From positions 124,001 through 188,000 of the forward strand of contig JAQQAL010000010.1 of assembly GCA_028532855.1 (NCBI GenBank): a stretch of 64,000 nucleotides of DNA, given 5' to 3'. This document shows positions 21,061 through 25,660 of this stretch, in pieces (positions within the stretch are counted from its first letter, which is position 1; the number at the start of each line of letters is the position of its first letter). This stretch comes from Candidatus Thalassospirochaeta sargassi. GTDB lineage: Bacteria > Spirochaetota > Spirochaetia > UBA9216. Both the position numbers and the translations under genes were made by a program. The notes under the pieces were generated by a model that was not told the DNA's origin, did no database searches, and saw only the letters and a program-made list of their open reading frames with translations.

Positions 21061-21140
21061 TTGACTTCCCAATTAATCCGATATAATCTATAGTGGTCAG
21101 TAGCAGAAAAAAAGCATTGTTGCCACTATATATAGCGTGT
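21061..21140 (+). promoter_or_regulatory. Promoter and candidate NrdR boxes of the ribonucleotide reductase gene
   Basis: TTGACT (21061-21066) and TATAAT (21082-21087) are separated by a short 15-bp spacer. Two A/T-rich sequences, GATATAATCTATAGTGG (21080-21096) and CCACTATATATAGCGTGT (21123-21140), resemble the ACACnATATnnTGTGT type of NrdR box. Their centres are about 42 bp apart, four helical turns. They are also partly complementary to each other, so a hairpin is the alternative reading. Confidence 0.4.
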
Positions 21141-21167
21141 TACAAAAGAAGAACTGGGAGGTCCTTT

Positions 21168-23408
21168 ATGTCAAAATGGGAATGGAAACAAAAAATAAGC
21201 AGAGAAATATTTGAAGCTAAATACTGTCTGCATCACGAAAAAAGTCCTGAGGAAGTATTTAGATTAATCTCTGAAGAAACAGCCTCTGTTGAAACAGATA
21301 AAGAAAAATGGGCCGGAGAGTTCTACAATGAGCTGGTAGATGGCCGCCTAATCCCGGCTGGAAGGATCCTGGCAAATGCCAGACCCGAAAGTAAAATGAA
21401 GAATTATAACAACTGTTTCACTATAGATATAGAAGATTCCATGGAAGGAATCTATGAATCACTGAAGGAGGACGCCGCAATCAGCAAAATGGGAGGCGGA
21501 GTCGGCTTCGATATCTCAAAACTCAGACCTAAAGGCGCCCCTCTGTCCAGCGGCAGCGAATCTTCAGGCGTAATATCATTTCTTAGAATTTTTGATCAGT
21601 CAGCAAAGACTATAATGACAGGAGGGCAGCGTCGATCAGCCCATATTGCACTACTTGATATATCGCATCCAGAGATTGAAGACTTTATCACTGTAAAAAA
21701 AGGTGACAGCAACGGCGAACTCACCCAATTCAATATCTCGGTAAAGGTCAGCGATGATTTTATCCAGGCTGTCAAGAATGACGACGACTGGGATCTTGTT
21801 TTCGACGGCAGGGTCTATAAAACAGTAAAAGCACGCTACCTCTACGAGATGCTGGCCAAAAACGCCTACACTCATAACGAGCCCGGCATATTCTATGCAG
21901 ATACCGTAGAACGCTTTAACAACGGTTACTGGGCATTCAAGATGGACAGGGTTAACCCCTGCGGCGAGCTTGTAATGCCGCCCTACTCACTATGCTGTCT
22001 CTCGGCAATCAACCTGACCAAGTATATTGATAATCCCTTTACCGATAATGCTGTTTTCAACTTCGAGCAGTTCGCGAAAACAGTCAGTGTAGGCGTAAGA
22101 TTCCTTGACAATATTCTCGATGTCACCGAATATCCGCTGGAGAAAATAGAAACCTTTTCAAAGCAGTGGCGGCGAATTGGTCTGGGAATAACCGGTCTGG
22201 GAGATGCCTTCACAATGCTGGGGGTTAAATACGGATCCAGAGACTCTAAAGATATAGTTGAAGAAATAGCGGCAACCCTTCGAAACGAATCCTACCTCGC
22301 ATCAGCTGCAATCGCAGCAGAAAAAGGAACTTTTCCTGCTTATGATGAAGAAAAATATCTGCAGGCGGAATTTATCAAGAATCTTCCCGAGCAAATAAGG
22401 TCGGAAATAAAGAAGAACGGTATAAGAAATGTTCAAATGAACACTATTGCTCCAACCGGCACAACATCTCTGTCTGTCGGCCAGAACTGCTCCTCGGGAA
22501 TAGAACCAATCTTCGCCCTCACCTACAACCGGACAATCAGAACCGGTGTTGCAGATCAAACCGTTACCGAAGAAGTATCCGACTACGCCTATAATATGTA
22601 TCGCGATATAACCGGTAATGATGATGTTCCTGAATACTTTGTAACTACCCTTGAAATTGATCCATATGATTCAATCGACGTACAGGCCGCGTTTCAAAAG
22701 TACATTGACCACTCAATTTCAAAGACCCTGAACCTCCCGGACGGAACAAGTTTTGAGGAGTATCAGAACCTCTTTATGTACGCCTACGACAAAGGACTTA
22801 AGGGGTTCACAACCTTTAACCCTAACGGCTCAATGAAGGGAATACTCGAATACTCAAACAAGGACTCTGAAGAGCCTATACACACACATCACGCCCCTAC
22901 AAGACCCTCTGAGCTACCCTGCGACATCCACAGAGTGCGTGCCGGACGAAACAGCATTATCGTGATAGTAGGTAAGCTTAAAAACAGCCTGTATGAACTA
23001 TTTGTTATCGATGATCCCGAATCAAAAATAGACATAGAAACAGAGAAAAAAACCGTGGTACGCAAAGCAGGCGGTGGACGATACGATCTTGTATATCTGA
23101 ACGGATCGGAAGAAATCAAGCTTCAGAACTTTACAAAGGAGTTTGACTCACCAAATTCTTCGCTTGCCAGGTTCATATCAATGTCGCTTAGGCACGGTAC
23201 TCCACTGCAGTTCGTTATCAACCAGCTGCAGAAAGACACAAACTTTACCGACTTTGAACGCTCAGTAGCCCGTGTACTTAAAAACTACATCAAGGACGGG
23301 GAGGAAGTAATAACATCAGATGGTGAATGCCCAGAGTGCAAACAGCGTCTAACCTACGCCGACGGCTGTATAACCTGCTTCAACTGCGGCTATTCACGCT
23401 GCGGCTGA
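21168..23408 (+). CDS. nrdJ: Adenosylcobalamin-dependent (class II) ribonucleotide reductase
   Basis: 746 residues from the ATG at 21168, preceded by GGGAGGT; the frame is open further upstream without support. It reduces ribonucleotides with a B12 radical. Seen: active-site region YNNCF near residue 80, GGGVGFDISKLRP, the NPCGEL motif, and TGTTSLSVGQNCSSG. The C-terminus carries two CxxC-like pairs (CPECKQR, CITCFNCGYSRC) for zinc binding or thiol delivery. No N-terminal ATP cone is seen. It needs no oxygen and no separate radical subunit. Confidence 0.92.
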   Translation: MSKWEWKQKISREIFEAKYCLHHEKSPEEVFRLISEETASVETDKEKWAGEFYNELVDGRLIPAGRILANARPESKMKNYNNCFTIDIEDSMEGIYESLKEDAAISKMGGGVGFDISKLRPKGAPLSSGSESSGVISFLRIFDQSAKTIMTGGQRRSAHIALLDISHPEIEDFITVKKGDSNGELTQFNISVKVSDDFIQAVKNDDDWDLVFDGRVYKTVKARYLYEMLAKNAYTHNEPGIFYADTVERFNNGYWAFKMDRVNPCGELVMPPYSLCCLSAINLTKYIDNPFTDNAVFNFEQFAKTVSVGVRFLDNILDVTEYPLEKIETFSKQWRRIGLGITGLGDAFTMLGVKYGSRDSKDIVEEIAATLRNESYLASAAIAAEKGTFPAYDEEKYLQAEFIKNLPEQIRSEIKKNGIRNVQMNTIAPTGTTSLSVGQNCSSGIEPIFALTYNRTIRTGVADQTVTEEVSDYAYNMYRDITGNDDVPEYFVTTLEIDPYDSIDVQAAFQKYIDHSISKTLNLPDGTSFEEYQNLFMYAYDKGLKGFTTFNPNGSMKGILEYSNKDSEEPIHTHHAPTRPSELPCDIHRVRAGRNSIIVIVGKLKNSLYELFVIDDPESKIDIETEKKTVVRKAGGGRYDLVYLNGSEEIKLQNFTKEFDSPNSSLARFISMSLRHGTPLQFVINQLQKDTNFTDFERSVARVLKNYIKDGEEVITSDGECPECKQRLTYADGCITCFNCGYSRCG

Positions 23409-23573: not shown

Positions 23574-24080
23574 CTATATTGATTTTACAGCCTTCAATGC
23601 TGAATCAAAATCTGGGTCCTGTGTAATTTCAGGAACCTGTTCGGTATAGACAACCTTACCGGCTGTATCTACGACGACGACTGCTCTTGAAAGCAGGCCT
23701 CTTATGGGGCCGTCGGTTATAAGAACACCATAATCTTTTCCAAAATCGGGAGTCCTGAAAACAGAAGCATTCCTGACTTTCTCCAGCCCCTCACTCTCAC
23801 AGAAACGGCCGTGAGCAAATGGCAGGTCTGCTGAAATACAGAGTACCTCTGTATTCTCAAGATTGTTAAGTTCAGAGTTGAACTTACGGACTGAAGCTGC
23901 ACATACTGAGGTGTCAAGGCTCGGGAAGATATTAAGAATCAGCTTTTTGCCGGCGAAATCAGAGAGTTTAACCTCTGACATGTCGGTTGATGTAAGAGTG
24001 AATGACGGTGCATCAGCTCCTGTCGCCGGAAGAGTTCCAATAGTATTAATTTTATTTCCTTCTAATGTAATTTCAGACAT
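23574..24080 (-). CDS. tpx: Thiol peroxidase (Tpx)
   Basis: 168 residues. The peroxidatic cysteine is in LDTSVCAASVRKF (about residue 60) and the resolving cysteine in GRFCESEG (about residue 94), the atypical 2-Cys arrangement of Tpx. It reduces hydroperoxides with thioredoxin. Divergent from the candidate selenoprotein gene; the two may share redox control. Confidence 0.92.
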   Translation of the reverse strand: MSEITLEGNKINTIGTLPATGADAPSFTLTSTDMSEVKLSDFAGKKLILNIFPSLDTSVCAASVRKFNSELNNLENTEVLCISADLPFAHGRFCESEGLEKVRNASVFRTPDFGKDYGVLITDGPIRGLLSRAVVVVDTAGKVVYTEQVPEITQDPDFDSALKAVKSI

Positions 24081-24147: not shown

Positions 24148-24176
24148 TTGACATTGATGCTATATATGTCTAAACT
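24148..24176 (+). promoter_or_regulatory. Sigma-70 promoter of the small TGA-containing gene
   Basis: TTGACA (24148-24153), 17-bp spacer, TAAACT (24171-24176). It ends 16 bp before the ATG, with AGAGGA as ribosome-binding site. Confidence 0.6.
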
Positions 24177-24192
24177 AATATAGAGGATTTTT

Positions 24193-24384
24193 ATGGATGA
24201 AACATTATTAATGGTCTTAGCTCTTGCCGGTTGGATTATTCTTCAGAGGTGGATACTTCCCAGGTTCGGGGTACATACATGAATGAGCCCTAAGGGCAGC
24301 TGCTCGGTCGAGCAGGAAAAAGATGAAACCGAGAAAACGGTTGTTGAAGTCAAAAAGATTGATATAGACAGTCTTGATGACTAA
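24193..24384 (+). CDS. Candidate small membrane selenoprotein (in-frame TGA)
   Basis: The frame gives 63 residues if TGA 24280-24282 is read as selenocysteine: an N-terminal helix MDETLLMVLALAGWIILQ, then RWILPRFGVHT-U-MSPKGSC, then an acidic tail ending DIDSLDD and TAA. The next ATG follows the TGA directly and in the same frame. Twenty-three bases after the TGA the stem CTGCTC-GGTC-GAGCAG places a GGTC loop as in bacterial SECIS elements (loop about 16-37 nt from UGA). A promoter, a ribosome-binding site and a terminator bracket the whole unit. Alternatively two separate tiny ORFs of 29 and 33 residues. Confidence 0.6.
24283..24317 (+). promoter_or_regulatory. Putative bacterial SECIS hairpin
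   Basis: Directly after the in-frame TGA. The apical part is a perfect 6-bp stem CTGCTC/GAGCAG with loop GGTC, similar to the GGUCU apical loop of E. coli fdhF. A lower GCCCTAAGGGC stem may extend it. Confidence 0.5.
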
Positions 24385-24389
24385 AAAAG

Positions 24390-24436
24390 AGGAGCAAATT
24401 GCCTGCAGGATGCAAGTTATCAGGCTCCTTTTTTTT
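24390..24436 (+). terminator. Rho-independent terminator
   Basis: AGGAGC pairs with GCTCCT around an inner TTGC/GCAA stem and is followed by eight T. It ends the small TGA-containing gene 5 bp after its stop. Confidence 0.8.
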
Positions 24437-24466: not shown

Positions 24467-24520
24467 TAGATATTCGCTACTTGTTATGCACCCTGGTTCA
24501 GAAGAATAATGGGGTTTCAA

Positions 24521-25660
24521 ATGAAAAAAAAAGTAAAAAAAAATATTTTAGTTCTAATATTTATTGTGTTGCTGAGTTCCTGTTCGCAGTTTAATAATCA
24601 GCCTGAAACAATATTAACTCCAGATATCTCAGACAGTCTGGCATTTGGTCGTAAAGTTGCGATATCAGGTGATATCGCGCTGGTAAGTGCAGTACTGGAT
24701 AACTACGATGGGACACATGAATTGTATACAGGGTCAGTCTATGTATTTGAAGGTGGCGATGAAGAATGGTCTCACACACAGAAACTAACTGCATCAGATT
24801 TAGCCGACGGGGACAGATTCGGGTCGGATATTGCTATTTCGGGAACAACTGCCATAATAGGTGCCTGCTGTGCCAATGGTGATAAACTTAATGAGGGTGC
24901 TGCGTATATCTTTAAACAGGAGAACGGTGAATTCTCTCAAGCGCAGAAACTGACGGTTTCAGACGCAGATACGGATGATAATTTCGGGACCCGGGTTACA
25001 ATATACGGTGATACTGCGGCAGTTGCAGCGCCCGGCAAAAGTTCCAGCTCTATTTCCGGGGCTGTTTACATATTTGAAAAATCCGGTGGCACATGGATCC
25101 AGAGTCAGATGCTGACAGTCGAAACGAATGAGAACCTGGGAACCTCCCTCGATTTATCCGAAGAATATCTCTTTGTCGGTTCAGAGTCTGATGATCTCTA
25201 TGGATCAGTCTATGTATTTGAATATGACGGAGACAGCTGGATTCAAGGTTCAAAAATTTCAGCATCAGACCAGGGCTCATCAGATTTATTCGGAGGTGAT
25301 ATTGCGTTTTCAGAAGATACACTTATAGTCGGGGCTGCAGGCAATGATGATAACGGTGCAGATTCAGGCTCCGCGTATATATATCAGGAAAGTAGTGGCA
25401 ACTGGAGTCAAATCCGGAACCTGCTTCCGGATGATGGGATTGACGATGCCTGTTTTGGAACCTCGGTAGCAATCTACTCCGATACAGCCGTGATAGGATG
25501 CGCCGGTGCCGTATATATCTACTCACAGAGCTCCGGAACCTGGAGCAGCACCAGGAAAATTACCAATACAAGTGAGCACTTCGGCGAATCAACAGCAATC
25601 GATGAATCAGTATTGATTGTAGGTTGTGCAGAATCAGCATATATCTATCAGCTGGATTAG
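24521..25660 (+). CDS. FG-GAP repeat lipoprotein
   Basis: 379 residues from ATG 24521 (GGGG six bases upstream); ATG 24509 would add four residues. A lysine-rich start, a hydrophobic stretch and lipobox LLSSC make it a lipoprotein. At least six repeats of the type FGxxxxxxxDTxxxGA (for example FGSDIAISGTTAIIGA, FGTRVTIYGDTAAVAAP) predict a beta-propeller with repeated acidic calcium-type loops. Such domains mediate surface binding. No enzyme motif is seen. Confidence 0.75.
   Translation: MKKKVKKNILVLIFIVLLSSCSQFNNQPETILTPDISDSLAFGRKVAISGDIALVSAVLDNYDGTHELYTGSVYVFEGGDEEWSHTQKLTASDLADGDRFGSDIAISGTTAIIGACCANGDKLNEGAAYIFKQENGEFSQAQKLTVSDADTDDNFGTRVTIYGDTAAVAAPGKSSSSISGAVYIFEKSGGTWIQSQMLTVETNENLGTSLDLSEEYLFVGSESDDLYGSVYVFEYDGDSWIQGSKISASDQGSSDLFGGDIAFSEDTLIVGAAGNDDNGADSGSAYIYQESSGNWSQIRNLLPDDGIDDACFGTSVAIYSDTAVIGCAGAVYIYSQSSGTWSSTRKITNTSEHFGESTAIDESVLIVGCAESAYIYQLD

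Follow-up and report, generated by a model that had tools for sequence, protein, structure and literature searches.

A small spirochaete membrane protein with an in-frame TGA as a candidate selenoprotein associated with a HesB-like selenoprotein

One frame on the forward strand of the window (the whole stretch of 64,000 nucleotides analysed here, to which all coordinates refer) extends over 24193-24384 and is interrupted only by a TGA at 24280-24282, which raises the question of whether this codon ends a short peptide or is read as selenocysteine (Sec) within a longer protein. An earlier note on this DNA had proposed the latter, and its description of the frame was borne out: the gene comprises 63 codons and a terminal stop TAA at 24382-24384. 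The 63-residue product, MDETLLMVLALAGWIILQRWILPRFGVHTUMSPKGSCSVEQEKDETEKTVVEVKKIDIDSLDD, is laid out as a hydrophobic helix (residues 3-21), the segment QRWILPRFGVHT-U-MSPKGSC and a charged tail, with the TGA at the position of Sec30. The promoter, ribosome-binding site and terminator that the note had placed around the frame are likewise all present by sequence on the forward strand. The promoter is sigma-70-like (TTGACA-17-TAAACT, 24148-24176) and agrees with the consensus at 10 of 12 positions, which makes it a consensus match only; the ribosome-binding site AGAGGA (24182-24187) lies before the ATG, and the terminator (24391-24436) consists of GGAGC at 24391-24395, GCTCC at 24424-24428 and then T8. 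The terminator scan missed this element because its loop is longer than 8 nt; a similar hairpin and T run are found in L010.

The genome to which the window belongs (G000) contains selA, selB, selC and selD, all four of the genes that the note had listed to be checked. SelB scores 282 bits over its curated cut-off, the selD match reaches 354.8 bits and the tRNA-Sec 68.6 bits, and selC, selA and selB lie together in this order on contig C14. The first relatives of the small gene came from two contigs of 'Spirochaetales bacterium' genomes in a public genome collection, at 67-71% identity and with the TGA at the same place. The organism itself is not Treponema denticola, which the note had brought in; the relatives within its genus are MAGs labelled 'Spirochaetales bacterium'. 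Searches of whole genomes, many of which are probably draft or metagenome assemblies, detected the gene in 6 of 98 close genomes and, in a draw of 393 genomes from across the phylum, in 28, the window's genome belonging to both sets. Altogether, 33 genomes of the spirochaete phylum carry the gene at 39 homologous loci, six of these genomes having a second, more divergent copy. L077-L084 form this second, more divergent paralogue group, and several of them have a longer N-terminus. All 33 carrier genomes have a tRNA-Sec above the Rfam cut-off. In the phylum draw the gene was present in 28 of 94 genomes with tRNA-Sec and in none of the 299 without it (Fisher 1.2e-19), and among the close relatives, where a tRNA-Sec was counted as true at 58 bits or more, in 6 of 18 with it and 0 of 80 without it; the Fisher tests ignore phylogeny, and relatedness was not corrected for.

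Every one of the 39 loci has TGA at the site and keeps the residues downstream of it, so that the outcome named in the note as a refutation, homologues that stop here and lack the tail, was not encountered. Across the 38 aligned members P23, G26, T29 and the Sec position do not vary, the C-S-[LV]-[DE] residues past the TGA are conserved at the protein level, and the start codon stands 29 codons ahead of Sec in most homologues. We also looked for homologues with Cys in place of Sec, as the note had suggested, and obtained none from the phylum genomes searched, from plasmids or from viral contigs. Nor did a 38-row profile find a Cys form in 64 chosen genomes, which include Sec-using genomes without a hit as well as genomes of the same genus or family without tRNA-Sec. 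Other phyla were reached only by the close-relative scan, and viral contigs and plasmids yielded no relatives of the small protein at all.

Past the TGA, close homologues differ chiefly in the third position of codons (18 of 32, 49 of 86, 16 of 34 and 69 of 120 in four groups of close homologues), implying that the sequence downstream of the TGA is coding. It could still be translated separately, as tandem peptides: a membrane peptide of 29 residues would end at the TGA and ribosomes would re-initiate at the adjacent ATG to make a second peptide of 33 residues, an arrangement suggested by the ATG directly after the TGA in the window and in 28 other loci. However, the codon after the TGA in 10 of the 39 loci is CTA, CTT, CTC, CTG, ATA, ATC or GTA, and the downstream residues and the hairpin described below stay conserved in these loci nonetheless, so that stopping and restarting cannot explain the conservation. 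Since it also gives no account of the TGA in 39 of 39 loci, of the restriction to genomes with tRNA-Sec or of the covarying hairpin, we rejected this reading as scarcely tenable. The frame would also be open if UGA were read as Trp or Cys, by leaky readthrough or by a changed genetic code. But 170 ORFs of at least 150 aa in the fetched loci end at TGA and 9 of the 39 family genes themselves end with TGA, which indicates that these genomes use TGA as an ordinary stop; moreover, the distribution of the gene follows tRNA-Sec, and the TGA was never seen replaced by a Trp or Cys codon. The chance that UGA is read in this way seems negligible.

Downstream of the TGA lies a hairpin of the bacterial SECIS type, CTGCTC-GGTC-GAGCAG (24300-24315, forward strand), with a stem of 6 bp and the apical loop GGUC at 24306-24309. 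The note had put the hairpin 23 bases past the TGA, which is right for the start of the loop but not for the stem, which starts at 17 nt. According to the published bSECIS model, the loop has 3-9 nt with a G in its first two positions, the stem has 4-16 bp, the distance from the UGA is 16-37 nt and the minimum free energy is at most -7.5 kcal/mol (PMC13188914); the window hairpin, at -9.4 kcal/mol with its flanks, satisfies this model in loop, stem, distance and energy. A loop containing GG is found at +17 to +23 in 36 of the 39 loci, the exceptions being L077, L079 and L083, which have other loops, and the stem is mismatched in a few loci. A GG loop at the right distance, on a stem of 5 or more contiguous pairs, is present in 29 of the 39 homologues, compared with 1 of the 170 ordinary TGA stops; when 6 or more contiguous pairs were required, the counts were 25 of 39 and 0 of 170.

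The two arms of the hairpin also vary together. In 17 sequences of equal length, pairing was found in 92.4% of cells and the covariation score was 0.460 against 0.232 in shuffles, none of the 500 shuffles being as high, and the score fell to 0.05-0.20 in controls in which the partner was slid. With the 3' arms swapped between 36 loci, only 143.8 pairs (sd 7.7) were formed instead of 231 of 252, although the register was chosen per sequence in this test, which biases it toward the observed value. Two loci among the closest class relatives illustrate the exchanges: in L034 (the same locus as L015) a C-G pair has become U-A by a compensatory change, and in L035 (the same locus as L016) a U-A pair has become C-G through two amino-acid changes, S to P and E to G. 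A TGGAY loop is common in the family and recurs in the HesB selenoprotein genes of these genomes. An Rfam scan gave no match at the SECIS site.

Because short membrane peptides are common and the hairpin stands just behind the stop codon, the gene could be thought to encode nothing more than an ordinary membrane peptide of 29 residues, with the hairpin serving as an RNA element for regulation or stability and the downstream frame left untranslated. The third-position differences, the protein-level conservation of C-S-[LV]-[DE] and the rarity of a comparable hairpin at ordinary TGA stops (the single case mentioned above) speak against such a peptide, which we consider practically ruled out. Decoding of the UGA as Sec is, by contrast, strongly supported, albeit without any experiment. 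The note's proposal of a selenoprotein with a SECIS-like hairpin thus gained support from the machinery, the unbroken retention of the TGA and the covarying hairpin, and we are nearly certain that the small protein is a selenoprotein, even though this judgement is made from sequence and neither protein nor 75Se evidence exists.

What would such a protein look like? A single transmembrane helix is predicted for residues 3-21 (24199-24255, forward strand) from hydrophobicity and from an AlphaFold helix with a pLDDT of about 82. The AlphaFold model as a whole contains this helix only, at a mean pLDDT of 58, and the short tail is predicted with low confidence, as if it were disordered. The helix is preceded by D2/E3 and followed by R19 and R24, from which we infer that the C-terminus is probably cytosolic. 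Past the Sec, the TGC codon of Cys37 (24301-24303, forward strand) would supply a possible resolving thiol. The note had correctly placed this Cys seven residues from the Sec, while the five intervening positions of its motif have to be corrected to four (U-M-S-x4-C). The pair is also not fixed across the family: a Cys is kept in 37 of the 39 loci at a spacing that varies from 4 to 7 residues, and its absence from L079 and L084 indicates that a Sec-Cys bond is not universal.

In the window the nearest candidate for a partner is a divergent thiol peroxidase gene (Tpx; 23574-24080, reverse strand; PRK00522, E 1.6e-72), at which the note had hinted as a functional neighbour. The small protein might serve this enzyme, 112 nt away, but in none of the five relatives compared did a Tpx homologue turn up near the gene, and none recurred beside it in the wider set, so that we regard Tpx as merely a neighbour and a role in its service as very improbable; the conserved partner is instead a HesB-like selenoprotein. 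An adenosylcobalamin-dependent ribonucleotide reductase gene (NrdJ) lies at 21093-23408 and is near the small gene only in the window, L031 and L032. We discarded NrdJ as a partner, because its retention in only three members of the genus is plain synteny. Just past the selenoprotein terminator, 24509-25660 encodes a predicted lipoprotein that is 383 residues long and contains repeated VFE/YIY blocks.

The HesB/IscA-like gene has an in-frame TGA of its own, within GxGUGGP, and in the phylum draw it was present in 26 of 28 carriers of the small gene compared with 4 of 66 other Sec-using genomes. No HesB selenoprotein was detected in two carriers of the phylum draw and two of the close-relative set, and the small gene is absent from four HesB-selenoprotein genomes. 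In 15 genomes (families f51, f70, f78, f80 and f83) the small gene lies directly downstream of the HesB-like gene, mostly at a spacing of 9-24 nt. HesB-like TGA genes were seen upstream of the small gene in L055, L058, L060-L068, L070, L071, L074 and L076. In the window's genome the HesB-like selenoprotein gene is on another contig (G000:C17:112302) and not adjacent to the small gene. The HesB-like proteins of L068 and L100 matched TIGR01911/NF038090 with best E-values of 4e-13 and 5e-14, under the curated cut-offs. The HesB-like genes upstream of the small gene do not reach the TIGR01911 cut-off and may therefore be overlooked or shortened by annotation pipelines. Both the single hydrophobic segment and the association with the HesB-like selenoprotein are, at the level of sequence evidence, established.

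Several loci contain further genes. L068 has an apparent operon in the order ArsR-type regulator, HesB(Sec), small gene and thioredoxin, and L055, which like L068 belongs to f78, has the first three of these in the same order. The L068 regulator is of the ArsR/SmtB type and matches NF033788; regulators of this class sense metals or reactive sulfur species. Within the f78 operons, the DCNVNKMV stretch of the regulator contains a Cys that is conserved. Downstream of the small gene, L061, L063, L064, L066, L067, L071 and L072 encode a predicted lipoprotein that is conserved and about 180 residues long, the L071 copy having no match in Pfam, and several loci have a gene for a Lon-like protease, named from sequence only, upstream of HesB.

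Taken together, we consider it well founded, as the best overall explanation, that the gene encodes a membrane selenoprotein whose UGA is decoded as Sec and which has an inferred HesB-linked role. The product would be a single-pass protein of about 40-65 residues, for which the in-frame UGA would be translated as Sec with the help of SelB, tRNA-Sec and the SECIS hairpin that follows shortly after it. Its motif would be [LF]PxxGxxT-U-[MLIV], in most members with a Cys 4-7 residues past the Sec; an N-terminal transmembrane helix would precede the motif and a charged tail follow it. This tail is probably cytosolic, as inferred from the basic residues that follow the helix, and would share the cytosol with HesB and thioredoxin, which are both expected there. 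It is probable that the small protein is functionally coupled to the HesB-like selenoprotein, a function inferred rather than observed. The selenol at the cytosolic face of the membrane may work with the soluble HesB/IscA-like protein by exchanging electrons, chalcogen or metal, and may react with a HesB-bound substrate such as a disulfide, a persulfide, a metal or a cluster; an internal bond between Sec and Cys37 could then be re-reduced by thioredoxin. That the chemistry is of this thiol/selenol redox kind is inferred and can be offered only tentatively.

The main functional rival to redox chemistry is that the Sec/Cys pair acts as a metal or Fe-S ligand by which the IscA-like HesB selenoprotein is tethered to the membrane to deliver a cluster or metal(loid). 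The IscA-like nature of HesB and the ArsR/SmtB-type regulator at the start of two f78 operons would suit such a ligand, while the second ligand, the Cys, is absent in two members and varies in its spacing, and the L068 operon, with its thioredoxin gene, points rather to redox. The HesB-like selenoprotein already known, identified in Methanococcus by mutagenesis and 75Se labelling, has no assigned function (PMC11097638). We think a ligand role unlikely, though not to be dismissed. A bolder proposal, that the family exists only with Sec, without a Cys version anywhere, and acts as the HesB-like selenoprotein's obligate partner at the membrane, appears doubtful to us; if true, the two selenoproteins would form a module with chemistry that sulfur cannot replace.

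Comparison with known proteins indicates that the decoding mechanism is already known while the protein family and its HesB association are, as far as these sources show, new. The small protein had no match in Pfam, NCBIfam or PDB and none above a curated cut-off in the profile libraries, where weak hits (PF04602, ATP synthase subunits) fell below cut-off and look like membrane-helix noise, and no such protein is among the 119 families of a 2026 selenoprotein inventory. A widespread, unlisted selenoprotein family is thereby added, and it hints at the reason for which it would escape screens that depend on Cys homologues or on longer ORFs. According to PMC12013277, Cys homologues seem to exist for all known selenoproteins, and the method of that study can miss selenoproteins without them; the present family, for which no Cys form was found, would be a case of this kind. 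The orphan HesB-like selenoprotein in turn gains a conserved membrane partner, accompanied in some genomes by a thioredoxin and an ArsR-type regulator, which makes its role testable.

With the bacterial selenoproteins decoded by bSECIS elements, the small protein shares the in-frame UGA, the genomic SelB and tRNA-Sec and a hairpin whose loop-start G lies 16-37 nt past the UGA, but it matches no listed family and no Cys form was found. TsoA, TsoC, TsoX, TsoY and the other motif selenoproteins of the 2026 inventory are also of unknown function and come from comparative genomics, yet their NCBIfam models match none of the 38 aligned members. Cys homologues were for a long time believed to be missing for the glycine reductase selenoprotein A (GrdA) as well; unlike the small protein, GrdA has a CxxU motif and belongs to a known enzyme complex, and Cys homologues of it have been reported (PMC12013277). 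Although the HesB-like selenoprotein (TIGR01911 / NF038090) is a soluble, IscA-like protein of about 100 residues without evident similarity to the membrane peptide described here, the two co-occur, are often encoded in the same operon, and have in common the TGGAY loop and a Sec with a downstream Cys.
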